Positions 9,332 to 53,896 of a DNA stretch of 64,000 bases are shown one piece after another. The stretch is taken from NCBI GenBank assembly GCA_024278755.1, contig JAJRSO010000062.1:1-64000 (forward strand). Direction: 5' to 3'. Position numbers and translations under genes: made by a program. Positions within the stretch are counted from its first letter, which is position 1. The number at the start of each line of letters is the position of its first letter. The notes beneath the pieces are model-generated. The model was not told the origin of the DNA. It did not search any database and saw only the letters and a list, made by a program, of their open reading frames with translations. Source of the DNA: Calditrichota bacterium (GTDB lineage: Bacteria; Calditrichota; Calditrichia; Calditrichales; Calditrichaceae).

Positions 9332-11239
9332 TCAAATATTTGTACCGGCTGCAAATCCGCTGTGAATGGCTTCGTAAATTTTAGCAGGCTGTATGGCGTC
9401 TCCGGCTGTCAGGGTACGAATCCCGGATGCTTTTAATTGTGGCAGGAGTGTATTTACACTTTCTGTACCGGTGGCGATTACCAGTAAATCCACTGCGGTA
9501 ATTAATCCGCCATGCCCGTCTTTAACAAAATGAATCTGATTTCCGTCGATTTGTTTAACTTCCGTTTCGGTGAAAATTGATATGGGAAGATCGGCAACAC
9601 GCTGCATAAGAAGTTTACGGCTGATCATTTCCATATCGCCTGCAATTTGTGGTAAGATTTAAATTACGATCGTTTCAATTTTTTGTCCGGCAATGAATTC
9701 GGCCGCTTCTACGCCAATTAAGCCGCCGCCGATTACAACCGCCTTCTTCACATTCTTCCAGTTTTTAAAAGAATAAATATTAAAACCGTTCCAATAGGAG
9801 GATGATTCCAGGCCTTCGAATGGGAAAATCTTTGGCTGCGCGCCGCAGGCCAGAATAACACTGTCCGGATTCTTTTGCTGAATTTTTTCAATAGTGATTT
9901 CGGAATTGAGATGTACCGCAACGGAGCTTTGCTCGAGATGATGCAGCAAATCGTCATGCAGAATTTTCATCCCTTGTTTTGCAGGCGCCAAAAAGGAAAG
10001 CGCGAACTGACCGCCAAGATGGTCTTCTTTTTCAAAAAGGTCAACCGTATGACCGCGGGCTTCGGCGGTTAGCGCCGCCTTAATTCCGGCCGGTCCGCCG
10101 CCGATAACTGTAACTTTTTGCGGGTTTTCAGCTGGCGATAGGCGCCATTCATTAATTTCACCCACTTCGGGATTAACCACACACTTTAAACCGTTCAGAG
10201 CTTTTACATTTAACAGGCATCCTTGCAGACAGTAGCCGCAGCGTATAACGGCGCCATCTTTCCCCGACAGCATCTTGTTAGGCAAATCCGGGTCTGCCAC
10301 AAGCGGCCGTCCTATGCCGATAAAATCAGCAGAACGGCTTTCGGCTAGCTGCCGGATTTCAGCGGGATTGCCGTTACGACCGGTCGCAATGACCGGAATG
10401 GAAACGGTTTGTTTGATGGCCTGCGCCGCTTTTATATTTTGTTGTTCGGGAAGGGCAAAAAACTGATAATAAACCGGCGGCGAGTCGCAGGCGGAACCAT
10501 TAACCACATGCAGGGCGTTTACGCCATTTTCTTCCAGCATGATTGCCAGGGTGCGCGCATCCTCCGTTGAAGTACCGTTTTGAGAAAATTCCATACCGCT
10601 TATGCGCGCAGTTATCGGGAAATCTTGCCCGATTCTATTGCGCACGGTTTTAATAAGCGTTTCGGAAAAACGCAGCGGCTCGGCCCATTCATCCTGTCGT
10701 TTATTGGTATGTGTAGAAAAAAACTGGTGGGCCAGATAACCAAGGCCAAACTGTATTTCCAATGCGTCAAAGCCTGCCTGCACCGCCCGTCGGGCGGCGT
10801 CGGCAAATTGACGGATGGTTTGTTCAATATCTTCCAAAGTCATTGCTTTTGGTGCAACGCCATGCACCGGGCAAGGAACCGCAGAAGGCGCCATGAGCAT
10901 TTTACCCGCCAGCTTTGGATTGGCCGCCCGCCCGGCGTGATTGATATGGGCGCATATTTTGGCGCCTTTTTCATGAACGGCATCGGTAAGCGATAAAAGG
11001 CCGGGAATTAATCTGTCGTCATGAATACCGATTTGTGTGGGCAGTTCTTTGCCGGAGGGATGGATAAAAAAGGGTTCGCAGATAATCATGGCCACGCCGC
11101 CTTCCGCCCGGCGCCGGTAGTAGCGGATATGCCGTTCGGTTACATCGCCGTTAAGAGTGCCGTATCCGGTTTTTACGGGAGCCATAATAAATTTGTTTTT
11201 TAGCTTCAGAGTACCGATTGCCTGTTCTGTATCTATCAT
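9332..11239 (-). pseudogene. old-yellow-enzyme/FadH-like NADH:flavin oxidoreductase with in-frame stop
   Basis: This reads as one gene of 636 codons interrupted by TAA at 9659-9661 (codon 527). The first part has an FMN-binding OYE barrel (APVKTGYGTL, INHAGRAANPK), a four-Cys iron-sulfur motif CGYCLQGC plus a later Cys before VVNPEVG, an FAD motif GGGPAGIKAALTA and the NAD motif GGGLIGVEAAEF. The same frame resumes after the stop with ILPQIAGDM and ends in the FAD-closing TAGDAIQPAKIYEAI. In this family the stop position is normally a Glu ending the Rossmann strand; GAA to TAA is one substitution. Start ATG 11239 has an AGGG site. It could be a pseudogene or a sequencing error. Confidence 0.85.
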
Positions 11240-11321
11240 AATGCCCTCATACGTTATTATAAAAATCAAAAAAACAATTTGCAAAACACAAATAAATTTC
11301 AAAACAATGTTTCAGATTTCA

Positions 11322-13262: not shown

Positions 13263-14852
13263 CTATTTGTTAACAAAGAGATATTTCATCCCAAGAAAAA
13301 ACACTTCTGCTTTAAATTTCCAGGTCGATTGGTAGTTAAGGGACATATCTACGCCGTGATGACAATGACATCTGCTCTGCCTGATTCTTTTCCTTATTAT
13401 CTTGGCGGTATTACTTTTCAGTAAATCGTGAATATTATAGTCGTAATCTCTGATGTTTCCCATCTTCCAATGGGCCTGATCGAGGCCTTCGGGGTAACCC
13501 AGATTTTCGCAGGGGAAGACGTCGCCATCGGGTGACATTACGACCCGCAGTTTTCCGGATTGACAGGGTAGATAGTATTTGGGGACTTTATAGTAGCGGG
13601 CAATCTTTTTTCGGATCGCTTCCCGATATGCTTTAATGAATACATTATGCGCAGCAAATTCGGAATGAATTTGTTGATTGATAGCGTTAAATTTTTTTAA
13701 ATCCAGATTAGGCTTATAATTTTTATGAGGCCGCACCAAAGAAAAGCTGATATCATCGGGTTTGATTTCATTTTTTACATAATTTAGCAGGTCGTCAATT
13801 TGCTTCTGGTTAAAATCATTGAAAGTGGTCAAAATTGTCAGGGAGATATTCCTGTATTTTTGTGCAATAGTTTTCACTTTTTTTACCGTTTTATCCCATC
13901 GTCGAAAAGCGTTTTTATATCCCGAAAAATCATCCATTTCTTTCCTCATCACATTTAATGAAAAATGAAAACGGAGATACTTGCTGCTATTTTGTCCAAA
14001 TAACGTAACAGTTTTTACCGCATTTTTCAGATAGGAACCATTGGTAGGCAGACAAATGGTTTGCGTATTCCAATGATTCGCAATAGTAAGGATAATCTCG
14101 GGGATGTCATTTCTTATTAAAGGCTCACCGCCACCGATATGTATGCGCTGCATGGAATGGATAAATCTTCCCATTTTTCCCACTTCTTCAGGTGATAAGA
14201 ATTGTGTTTTCTTTACATTAAGCTGATCCAGCATAAAGCAATGCTTGCACTTAAAATTACACTTGTCGGTAACAAAGAAGGTCATTTCTGTTAAACGGTT
14301 TTTAAAAATGAGCGGTATAATATTTCTGAAAATATTAAATCTATTTTTATTGGGACTGGCTTTAATTTGATTGGGATTAAGTTCTTTCTGCAGAATATGC
14401 GAAACAGCTTCTGAAAGTTTGTTGTCAAAATCTAAATCGGGGTTAAAAGAATCCGCTTGCCGAATAATTTGGGCAAGATCTGCAACATCATACACAGCCA
14501 GGATTCTGTTTTTTTGTTCAAGATATTGCACCAGTTCTGTTTGTCCCAATCCGGCGTCAAGAGCTTCCCCATGCTTTTTCAGGCGGGGCACAGCAATAAC
14601 GTTCTTTTTAAATTTCAGGCAATCGTAAATACTGCCATAGCCGCCGTGGGTGATTATCAGTCGGGCGGATTTTATCTTTTCTTCGAGTTTGTCTTTTGGT
14701 AAAAAGGTAAAGTAATTTGCATACTTCGGCAGGCTTACAGAATATCCCATCTGGATTTCAATTCTTTCATCAGTGTCCCGGGCATAGGAATCTATTGTTT
14801 TAATTAACCGGCCAAAATCATAAGGGTTGGTACCCAGTAAAACCAAAATCAT
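13263..14852 (-). CDS. Alg13-like glycosyltransferase fused to a radical SAM/SPASM domain
   Basis: A 529-residue fusion. Residues 1-160 match the catalytic C-terminal half of an Alg13/PssE/Cps14G-type glycosyltransferase: MILVLLGTNPYDFGRLI, then ITHGGYGSI (67-75) and VIAVPRLKKHGE, the sugar-nucleotide side. Residues about 188-400 are a radical SAM domain with C198, C202, C205 (CNFKCKHC) and the GGEP motif (241-244). The C-terminal part has SPASM/Twitch-like cysteines C430, C448, C495 and C497 around SPDGDVFPCEN. Its ATG overlaps the stop of the Alg14-like gene by one base (TAATG), pointing to a stoichiometric pair. Substrate is unknown: it could modify a glycan carrier or a peptide. Confidence 0.85.
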   Translation of the reverse strand: MILVLLGTNPYDFGRLIKTIDSYARDTDERIEIQMGYSVSLPKYANYFTFLPKDKLEEKIKSARLIITHGGYGSIYDCLKFKKNVIAVPRLKKHGEALDAGLGQTELVQYLEQKNRILAVYDVADLAQIIRQADSFNPDLDFDNKLSEAVSHILQKELNPNQIKASPNKNRFNIFRNIIPLIFKNRLTEMTFFVTDKCNFKCKHCFMLDQLNVKKTQFLSPEEVGKMGRFIHSMQRIHIGGGEPLIRNDIPEIILTIANHWNTQTICLPTNGSYLKNAVKTVTLFGQNSSKYLRFHFSLNVMRKEMDDFSGYKNAFRRWDKTVKKVKTIAQKYRNISLTILTTFNDFNQKQIDDLLNYVKNEIKPDDISFSLVRPHKNYKPNLDLKKFNAINQQIHSEFAAHNVFIKAYREAIRKKIARYYKVPKYYLPCQSGKLRVVMSPDGDVFPCENLGYPEGLDQAHWKMGNIRDYDYNIHDLLKSNTAKIIRKRIRQSRCHCHHGVDMSLNYQSTWKFKAEVFFLGMKYLFVNK

Positions 14853-15298
14853 TATAAAATACCAATTTGTTTTGCCCTTGGATAAAACGTTTGCAACTGT
14901 TCCGACTGAATAAAAAAATAATCCGAGAACGGGTAGAGCAGTCTTCCGGTTTTGGAGGGAAACTGAATCCTCGACCCGCTTTCAATAAAAACAGTTGTGG
15001 CGCCCATAATTTTACCGAGAATAAACAGACTTATGGAAATCCCGCCCCCGGTGGAAAGAACGATTCGGGGATTGGTTTGAAAATATATTTTTAATGCGCT
15101 TAAAAAGTTGAGAAAATATTTAAAAACATTCACATGCGGATCGATAATAAATTGCATATTAGACGGAGGCTTTTTTTTAAAATGGGGGAGCGGATTTGTT
15201 ACATAGATAATATCTGTTTCCCGGACATGTTCAAGAGCTATGTGTGCTTCGCATAAATGTCCGCCTGCGGGACACACAACCAGCACATTCTTTTTCAT
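14852..15298 (-). CDS. Alg14/PssD-like glycosyltransferase membrane-anchor subunit
   Basis: A 148-residue protein of the Alg14/PssD/Cps14F group, which binds the lipid acceptor and recruits the Alg13-type catalytic half to the membrane. Visible features are the N-terminal VLVVCPAGGHLCEA loop, a hydrophobic stretch around FLNFLSALKIYF, the TGGGISISLF segment, the FIESGSRI acceptor-side motif and the closing FYPRAKQIGIL. The gene directly precedes and overlaps the Alg13::radical-SAM gene, and together they should make one glycosyltransferase. No flippase, polymerase or other polysaccharide genes are nearby, so this is not an ordinary capsule locus. Confidence 0.85.
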   Translation of the reverse strand: MKKNVLVVCPAGGHLCEAHIALEHVRETDIIYVTNPLPHFKKKPPSNMQFIIDPHVNVFKYFLNFLSALKIYFQTNPRIVLSTGGGISISLFILGKIMGATTVFIESGSRIQFPSKTGRLLYPFSDYFFIQSEQLQTFYPRAKQIGIL

Positions 15299-24971: not shown

Positions 24972-25129
24972 ACCTTGTCTTCGCTGAAAATCCAAATATC
25001 ACAAAAGTATCACAAAGATCTCATATTTATGCAAAACGTACATTTTTTGAAAAAACGGGAATATGAGCTCCCACCATCCTGTTATAAGGGTTGAATTTAA
25101 AATACCATAACCCAACAAGGAGAATTAAC

Positions 25130-25672
25130 ATGAACAAATTGAATGTGTATTTCAAAGCTGTAGCCGGTCTGGCGATGATCGTTGCCATGGTTTTTGTATT
25201 TGGAAATACAAGTAATGCCGGTATCAGTCTGAATGACAATGGCGCATCTATCAGCTCAGAAAAAGGCGTTTCGCTGACAGCCTTAAACAGCAGTAAGTTT
25301 GAAAGCAGCGCCCGTAATGCCTGTGGCGCCGGTAAATGCGGCGCTTCAGATAAAAAAGCCGCTGTAAAAGGCAAAGCCAAGGATGCTAAAAAAGTAGCCA
25401 AAGAAATGAAAAAAGAAGGTAAATGCGGCGCCGGTAAATGTGGCGCAGGCAAATGCGGTGGTGCGGATAAAAAAGCCAACGTTAAATCTAAAGTCAAAGA
25501 TGTTAAAAATGCGGCTAAAGATGGCAAATGTGGCGATGGTAAATGCGGTGACGGCAAATGTGGCGGCGCGGATAAAAAAGCCGATGTTAAAGCAAAAGTT
25601 AAAAACGCCAAGAAAGCGGCAAAAGAGATGAAAAAAGAAGGTAAATGTGGCGCTGGTAAATGCGGTAAATAA
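25130..25672 (+). CDS. secreted GKCG-repeat peptide (HvfA-like RiPP precursor)
   Basis: A 180-residue, highly basic protein with a signal peptide (about 1-30, ending NTSNA). The mature part is a lysine/alanine-rich chain with nine GKCG motifs at 68, 97, 102, 107, 132, 137, 142, 171 and 176; several read EGKCG or DGKCG, spaced by GGADKKA and helical KVKxAKKAAKEMKKE segments. Ten cysteines lie only here. The EGKCG repeat with signal peptide is the hallmark of HvfA-type low-complexity peptides, which DUF692 (MNIO) enzymes modify to bind copper. No DUF692 or DUF2063 gene is in the window. The ATG at 25130 has AAGGAG upstream. It may also be an unmodified metal-binding protein. Confidence 0.75.
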   Translation: MNKLNVYFKAVAGLAMIVAMVFVFGNTSNAGISLNDNGASISSEKGVSLTALNSSKFESSARNACGAGKCGASDKKAAVKGKAKDAKKVAKEMKKEGKCGAGKCGAGKCGGADKKANVKSKVKDVKNAAKDGKCGDGKCGDGKCGGADKKADVKAKVKNAKKAAKEMKKEGKCGAGKCGK

Positions 25673-41131: not shown

Positions 41132-41422
41132 TTGTTTCTCGGAAAAGTGGCCGGATCGGTCTGGTCCACAAAAAAAACGGATAATTTAAAGAATCTTCGT
41201 TTTTTAATTATTCATCCGATCAACCTGAAAAAAGCCCCGTTAACAGATGTGGTAATTGCCGCAGATATTCTGGGAGCGGGCGTTGGCGAAACCGTAATTT
41301 GCGCGTACGGACACGCCGCCCGCCAGGCGATTTATCCGCAAAACCCCAATGAACTGAGTATTGAGGCAGCCGTTGTGGGTATTGTGGATCGTATGGATGT
41401 GGACGAGCGTTTATTAGACTAA
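41132..41422 (+). CDS. EutN/CcmL microcompartment pentamer protein
   Basis: A 96-residue BMC-P (EutN/CcmL) protein. Family markers are the N-terminal FLGKVAGSVWSTKK, the central DILGAGVGETVICAYGHAAR loop and the C-terminal VGIVDRMD strand. In bacterial microcompartments such proteins form pentamers at shell vertices. No hexameric shell gene (Pfam BMC domain) is seen nearby, and its neighbours are nadD and the ACT/PFL pair. The start is a TTG with CGGAG upstream. It is one of three related genes in the window. Confidence 0.92.
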   Translation: MFLGKVAGSVWSTKKTDNLKNLRFLIIHPINLKKAPLTDVVIAADILGAGVGETVICAYGHAARQAIYPQNPNELSIEAAVVGIVDRMDVDERLLD

Positions 41423-53357: not shown

Positions 53358-53630
53358 GTGCTGTTAGGCAAAGTTGTAGGAACCGTTTGGGCCACCCGGA
53401 AAGACGAGAAACTGACCGGGATGAAACTGTTAGTTGTCCGGCACGTTGAATTGGATTATACGTTAAAAAACAGCTATGTAGTTGCCGTCGATACGGTGGG
53501 TGCGGGCGCAGGAGAGATTGTGATGATTACAACAGGCAGCTCGGCCCGTCAATCGGAAATGACAGAAGGGCGCCCGGTTGACGCAGTGGTTTCTGCGATA
53601 ATCGATAAGCTGGATCTGGAAAACGGATGA
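53358..53630 (+). CDS. EutN/CcmL microcompartment pentamer protein, first of a tandem pair
   Basis: A 90-residue BMC-P protein opening LLGKVVGTVWATRKDEKL, with the vertex loop VDTVGAGAGEIVMITTGSSAR and C-terminal IIDKLDLE. The GTG start at 53358 follows AGAGGAG. It lies 14 bp after deoB and its stop overlaps the next eutN by 4 bp. No hexamer shell gene is present in the operon. Confidence 0.93.
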   Translation: MLLGKVVGTVWATRKDEKLTGMKLLVVRHVELDYTLKNSYVVAVDTVGAGAGEIVMITTGSSARQSEMTEGRPVDAVVSAIIDKLDLENG

Positions 53631-53896
53631 ATTTGGCAAAGGTTATCGGCACCATTTGGGCAACTCAAAAAGATAAAAATTTGGAAGGGTTGAAGATGCA
53701 GTTAATTCAGCCGATAACTCCTGCGCATAAAAATGACGGGCGTGCTATCATTGCCGTTGATACGGTGGGCGCCGGTATCGGAGCAATTGTTTTTTATGTA
53801 ACGGCTTACGAAGCCGTGCTTCCGTTGGCGCATAAATTGTCACTGGTTGATGCCTCCATCGTGGGAATTGTGGACCGGATTGAGGATACCGTGTGA
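53627..53896 (+). CDS. EutN/CcmL microcompartment pentamer protein, second of a tandem pair
   Basis: An 89-residue BMC-P protein: LAKVIGTIWATQKDKNLEG, VDTVGAGIGAIVFYVTAYEA and VGIVDRIEDTV. The Glu after the loop glycines of its neighbour (GAGxGE) is replaced by Ala here (GAGIGA), and the Ala-Arg that follows (SSAR) reads YEAV. The two genes overlap by 4 bp, so hetero-pentamers or two vertex types are possible. The next gene also overlaps it. Confidence 0.92.
   Translation: MNLAKVIGTIWATQKDKNLEGLKMQLIQPITPAHKNDGRAIIAVDTVGAGIGAIVFYVTAYEAVLPLAHKLSLVDASIVGIVDRIEDTV

Follow-up and report, generated by a model that had tools for sequence, protein, structure and literature searches.

BtrN, HygY, and NeoN are twitch radical SAM enzymes of antibiotic pathways, and they act on sugars or cyclitols. 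They combine a radical SAM core with one auxiliary-cluster domain and are free-standing, without a glycosyltransferase domain. In PMC10991966, NeoN and HygY are cited as twitch radical SAM epimerases acting on aminoglycosides. Split glycosyltransferases are the other described systems closest to the locus reported here. Alg14 binds the acceptor and provides the membrane site, and Alg13 binds the UDP-sugar; EpsE/EpsF elongate lipid-linked glucose with glucose or galactose (PMC8993221). PssD/PssE, Cps14F/Cps14G, and EpsE/EpsF are encoded as adjacent halves, the acceptor half preceding the donor half.

The locus is on the minus strand of a Calditrichota genome, in a window of 64,000 nucleotides (the whole stretch of DNA that was analyzed), and joins features of both groups. 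An Alg14/PssD-like gene is followed by a gene whose product unites an Alg13/PssE-like domain, a linker, a radical SAM core, and a twitch-like auxiliary domain (Table 1). The order and lengths of the two glycosyltransferase halves are similar to those of PssD/PssE, Cps14F/Cps14G, and EpsE/EpsF, and the donor motifs are kept, whereas the donor half carries the radical SAM/twitch enzyme, the scores are just below the NCBIfam cut-offs, and no polysaccharide cluster surrounds the pair. As in BtrN, HygY, and NeoN, the radical SAM core is accompanied by one auxiliary-cluster domain, and the BtrN twitch was matched by the profile. Each half is of a known kind. No description of a glycosyltransferase–radical SAM combination was found in the literature searched (most subscription papers lay outside it), in agreement with the original prediction, in which no described system with such a layout was known.

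Anatomy of the two genes

Table 1. Features of the Alg14-like gene and the fusion gene, with positions in the window
Feature	Position	Strand	Evidence
Alg14/PssD-like gene, 148 aa	14852..15298	-	Pfam Alg14 54.6 bits (cut-off 27); NCBIfam PssD 108.9 (cut-off 110)
TAATG stop/start overlap, Alg14-like gene to fusion	14850..14854	-	Sequence; also in L036 and L037
Fusion gene, 529 aa: Alg13/PssE-like domain, linker, radical SAM core, twitch-like auxiliary domain	13263..14852	-	Pfam, NCBIfam, full-length homologues
Alg13/PssE-like half, residues 1-155	14388..14852	-	Glyco_tran_28_C 4-94; PssE 2-152, E 7.9e-32; alignment with stand-alone PssE proteins
Radical SAM core, residues 194-358	13779..14273	-	Pfam Radical_SAM 54.5 bits (cut-off 29.5)
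CxxxCxxC motif, C198/C202/C205	14238..14261	-	Invariant in three fusions and six other relatives
Twitch-like auxiliary domain, residues 430-497	13362..13565	-	Pfam SPASM 23.2 bits (cut-off 21.5); invariant Cys C430, C448, C495, C497

An Alg13-type domain fused to a radical SAM domain with cysteines at C198/C202/C205 had been proposed from the sequence, and both Pfam and the sequence bear this out. The Glyco_tran_28_C match (32.8 bits) exceeds its cut-off of 22. The NCBIfam PssE score of 110.2 bits is below the equivalog cut-off of 120, so the protein is classed only as PssE-like. In the alignment with stand-alone PssE proteins, the GT, Q34, GxS, and VPR..E positions of the donor site are kept; the His of the HGG motif is replaced by Gln in the Bacteroidota copy described below (L037). 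The half is predicted to be a UDP-sugar-binding domain.

The acceptor subunit, which would bind the lipid-linked glycan, is predicted to be the 148-residue protein. It scores above the Pfam cut-off for Alg14 and adjoins the donor half, and it narrowly misses the PssD equivalog cut-off of NCBIfam (E value 2.7e-31). The sequence also confirms exactly the TAATG overlap that had been described between the two genes, and their translation is probably coupled.

The radical SAM core agrees with its superfamily in sequence motif and Pfam match, and GGEP is found at residue 241. C198, C202, and C205 are probably the ligands of the radical SAM [4Fe-4S] cluster. The best match of the core is MoaA (E 2.4e-7 in the PDB, E 7e-21 in NCBIfam), but the score is far below the MoaA cut-off, the match covers mostly the core, and the auxiliary cysteines of MoaA are different. 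The cysteine pattern of the C-terminal domain is C430-x12-G443-x4-C448 ... C495-x-C497. Three of the nine cysteines of the fusion are in CxxxCxxC and four in this domain, which does not contain the seven-cysteine set of SPASM proteins with two auxiliary clusters. The twitch arrangement, C-x(9-15)-G-x4-C with a later cysteine pair, is present, the pair being CxC and not CxxC. Because the four cysteines represent the first SPASM part and a single later pair, the domain is described as twitch-like rather than as a full SPASM domain. The "SPASM-like cysteines" of the original prediction thus hold insofar as the Pfam SPASM cut-off is passed, but the domain has a single auxiliary site of the twitch type. 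An AlphaFold2 model made from the three fusions was poor (mean pLDDT 52.5, pTM 0.40), with pLDDT mostly 60–85 in the Alg13-like half and below 40 in the C-terminal domain.

Recurrence, selection, and rarity of the fusion

The fusion is genuine and rare, and selection maintains it in two bacterial phyla. Full-length copies are found in a same-genus Calditrichota MAG (L036/L010, 74% identity) and in one Bacteroidota MAG (L037/L039, 66% identity). The reading frame is open throughout in all three assemblies, and the TAATG overlap is present at all three loci. A fusion unique to this genome, or two separate genes, had been named as the outcome that would speak against the original prediction; the two further full-length copies show neither. 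Across the segments for the glycosyltransferase, radical SAM, and twitch parts, the nucleotide comparison gave a dN of 0.13–0.39, and synonymous change was saturated or nearly so. This pattern indicates that purifying selection acts on each half. Conservation is higher in the radical SAM core, which has 75% identity to the Bacteroidota copy, than in the glycosyltransferase half (56%).

The same-genus genome shares the gene order NnrD - PssD - fusion - DUF134 - NifX-like, and all genes neighboring the Bacteroidota copy differ from those of the Calditrichota loci. The DUF134, NifX-like, DUF5320, and NAD(P)H-hydrate enzyme genes are absent around that copy, and a functional link to them was ruled out. 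Directly past the stop codon of the Bacteroidota fusion begins a 284-residue ORF (L037:11618-12472), which matched no Pfam, NCBIfam, PHROG, or PADLOC family and is not shared by either of the two Calditrichota fusion genomes.

Between this genome and the Bacteroidota carrier, the fusion is more similar (66%) than PheS (55%). Together with the absence of the fusion from other Calditrichota and from sampled Bacteroidota, this favors horizontal transfer, although a single protein, PheS, makes a slender yardstick. An apparent internal stop in pheS of this genome proved to be the normal gene end.

About 850 sampled genomes yielded no further full-length fusion; the sets covered were 38 other Calditrichota genomes, about 396 Bacteroidota, 64 genomes from the order of the Bacteroidota carrier, and 399 genomes from the phylum of a Clostridia MAG. 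Plasmids, phages, and IMG/VR contained none either. A scan of 84,980 species returned the same-genus and Bacteroidota copies as the only matches; it used six exact peptide words, which more distant copies would escape. At 16 other loci, PssE-type genes encode ordinary proteins of 156–193 residues, nearly all beside a PssD-like gene, and within about 1.5 kb none of the 16 has a radical SAM neighbor. The pairing is therefore not a general one, which counts against the explanation that we prefer below.

Relatives of the radical SAM half and surroundings of the locus

The nearest stand-alone relatives of the radical SAM half have at most 30% identity to it. In the tree, the three fusions group together with good support on a long branch of their own, which marks the fused form as a distinct subfamily; the deeper order is uncertain because of long branches. 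Of 12 relative loci examined, 11 adjoin GT2, GT4, GT26, or GT28-type genes or Wzx flippases, and the same search at 20 loci with this genome's other radical SAM genes gave none, a contrast that is not a clean statistic because the queries were drawn from the relatives' own clusters and favor them. The Pfam names and deposited annotation of the relatives' neighbors are free of this bias. Relatives beside a glycosyltransferase or flippase occur in a Clostridia EPS cluster (L038), Segatella (L045), and Pseudobutyrivibrio (L046), in Parabacteroides next to a GT28/EryCIII-like transferase (L041), and in G063, G394, G028, G867, G607, G647, and one of the two loci of G388. Where such stand-alone radical SAM proteins belong to O-antigen, capsule, or EPS clusters (e.g. 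L038, L052, L073-L076), they have the same core, and most have the C-x12-G-x4-C ... CxC pattern. They adjoin glycosyltransferases but are separate genes with at most 30% identity to the fusion, and none is fused to a glycosyltransferase. The neighborhoods of these relatives support a tie between the radical SAM half and glycan assembly, as indirect evidence given the low identity and the long branch.

BtrN and cytosylglucuronate decarboxylase, the substrates of which are cyclitols or sugars, are among the PDB relatives of the radical SAM profile, as are the peptide enzymes SkfB and anSME. A pair of a radical SAM gene and a geranylgeranyl-reductase-like flavoprotein gene (Pfam GGR_cat) recurs in Calditrichota (L011-L033, e.g. 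L021:1426-3738); its neighborhood was read in six loci, this genome among them. A geranylgeranyl-reductase-like gene is also near the glycan-cluster relatives in G867 and G647 (L073, L075). These genes keep a lipid substrate in play.

Around the pair itself, 16 queries including Wzx found no other glycosyltransferase or flippase gene in the 64-kb window, consistent with the earlier remark that no export genes are nearby. The pair is outside any glycan cluster in all three genomes, a point against the preferred explanation. About 42 kb from the pair are a capsule-related PGA_cap gene and a gene resembling CMP-sugar synthetase.

Several other features of the window were recorded. A FadH/OYE-like oxidoreductase gene (9332-11302, -) is interrupted by an in-frame TAA at about 9661 and may be a pseudogene, a recent nonsense change, or a sequencing error. 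A mycofactocin link through the OYE-like gene was ruled out, the match being far below the cut-off. A defense link was ruled out as well, as the pVip matches span the radical SAM core only. A repeat protein of the HvfA family (25091-25672, +; likely start near 25130) has KCGxGKCG repeats and a signal-like N terminus, and NCBIfam classes it as a precursor of an oxazolone/thioamide RiPP metallophore (30.4 bits, cut-off 19.5). Genes of the EutN/CcmL microcompartment vertex type occur at three places, scattered among housekeeping genes (41132-41422, 53358-53630, and 53627-53896, +). A perfect tandem repeat of the 7-base unit TTTGTCT, in about 10 copies (1262-1333), lies upstream of the gene at 1385 and is possibly phase-variable.

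Proposed working of the pair and alternatives

Here, we propose a working of the pair based on what the analysis shows: its anatomy, the gene overlap, the recurrence in two phyla, the purifying selection, and the glycan neighborhoods of its relatives. The kept donor motifs and the roles of Alg14/Alg13 and EpsE/EpsF point to a lipid-linked-glycan transferase. At about an even level of confidence, we consider the pair to be a split GT-B glycosyltransferase of this kind, in which the C-terminal radical SAM/twitch enzyme of the donor subunit changes the sugar on the very intermediate that the transferase handles. At the membrane face, the Alg14-like protein would hold a lipid-linked sugar, and the Alg13-like domain would bind a UDP-sugar and transfer the sugar to that acceptor. 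The tethered radical SAM domain would then alter the sugar of the same intermediate via a 5'-deoxyadenosyl radical. By analogy with the twitch enzymes acting on sugars and cyclitols, epimerization or dehydrogenation would be the likeliest chemistry, the exact reaction being a guess. All three fusions have C267, which the other aligned relatives lack; its assignment as the hydrogen donor of an epimerase is only a guess from three close sequences. For the pair as a whole, we infer glycosyltransferase activity, membrane location, radical activity, and a shared intermediate.

The original prediction had combined sugar transfer with radical modification of the same carrier, lipid or peptide. Its link to glycans has gained from the relatives beside glycosyltransferases and its peptide option has been weakened, while action on the same molecule is only plausible. 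The faster evolution of the glycosyltransferase half, the His-to-Gln change in HGG of the Bacteroidota copy, the long branch and low identity that separate the radical SAM half from its relatives, the PssD and PssE scores just below the cut-offs, and the presence of the peptide-modifying SkfB and anSME among the closest PDB sequences count against our explanation.

Alternatively, the radical SAM domain may act on the lipid carrier (a polyprenyl, another isoprenoid, or a fatty chain), to which the glycosyltransferase would then add its sugar. The geranylgeranyl-reductase-like partners of relatives across Calditrichota and near L073 and L075 suit this mechanism, as do weak NCBIfam matches to HpnH and tetraether lipid synthase and the macrocyclic archaeol synthase among the PDB relatives. 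However, none of the three fusions has such a reductase-like gene beside it, most glycan-cluster relatives are without an adjoining lipid gene, and ordinary polyprenyl or dolichyl carriers are usual for Alg14-type enzymes. We regard action on the carrier as unlikely. Slightly less probable still is that the Alg13-like domain has become a UDP-sugar-binding module that feeds the radical SAM domain, so that the donor undergoes the radical step while sugar transfer plays a secondary part or has been lost. The faster change of the glycosyltransferase half and the Gln in HGG would fit this mechanism, but the retained donor positions and the Alg14-like partner with an overlapping start at all three loci argue for a working two-part transferase.

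A mycofactocin-like RiPP or protein-modification system, in which a radical SAM peptide maturase is combined with a glycosyltransferase, is the weakest of these three alternatives and very improbable. The sequence relatives do include SkfB, anSME, and further SPASM peptide enzymes, but every maturase family scores far below its NCBIfam cut-off and the partner is of the lipid-acceptor Alg14 type. The conserved small neighbor gene that the original prediction had suggested seeking was not found beside the three fusions, and no small ORF is common to the gaps of the three loci. The idea that the fusion arose from an error of assembly or a frameshift, or is a gene in decay, which MAG-type assemblies and the few known copies might suggest, is refuted by independent copies with an open frame, 66–74% identity, and purifying selection in three assemblies from two phyla, and its probability is negligible.

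Returning to sugar transfer followed by radical chemistry, a bolder form of our proposal is tentative and somewhat doubtful: one complex would place a sugar onto a lipid carrier and then perform radical chemistry on that sugar, the two genes forming a mobile unit for a surface sugar of no known pathway. In the literature searched, no functional assignment was found for the surface-glycan radical SAM genes of several phyla. A known type of glycosyltransferase is here naturally fused to such an enzyme, which suggests that the radical step is part of lipid-linked glycan assembly, and the fusion may serve as a Rosetta stone for the uncharacterized radical SAM group beside glycosyltransferases. The two-gene system is small enough for expression and assay. 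It indicates a radical step, so far unstudied, in the making of surface sugars or glycolipids, and, if the proposal is true, radical chemistry would join the toolbox of bacterial surface-sugar synthesis.
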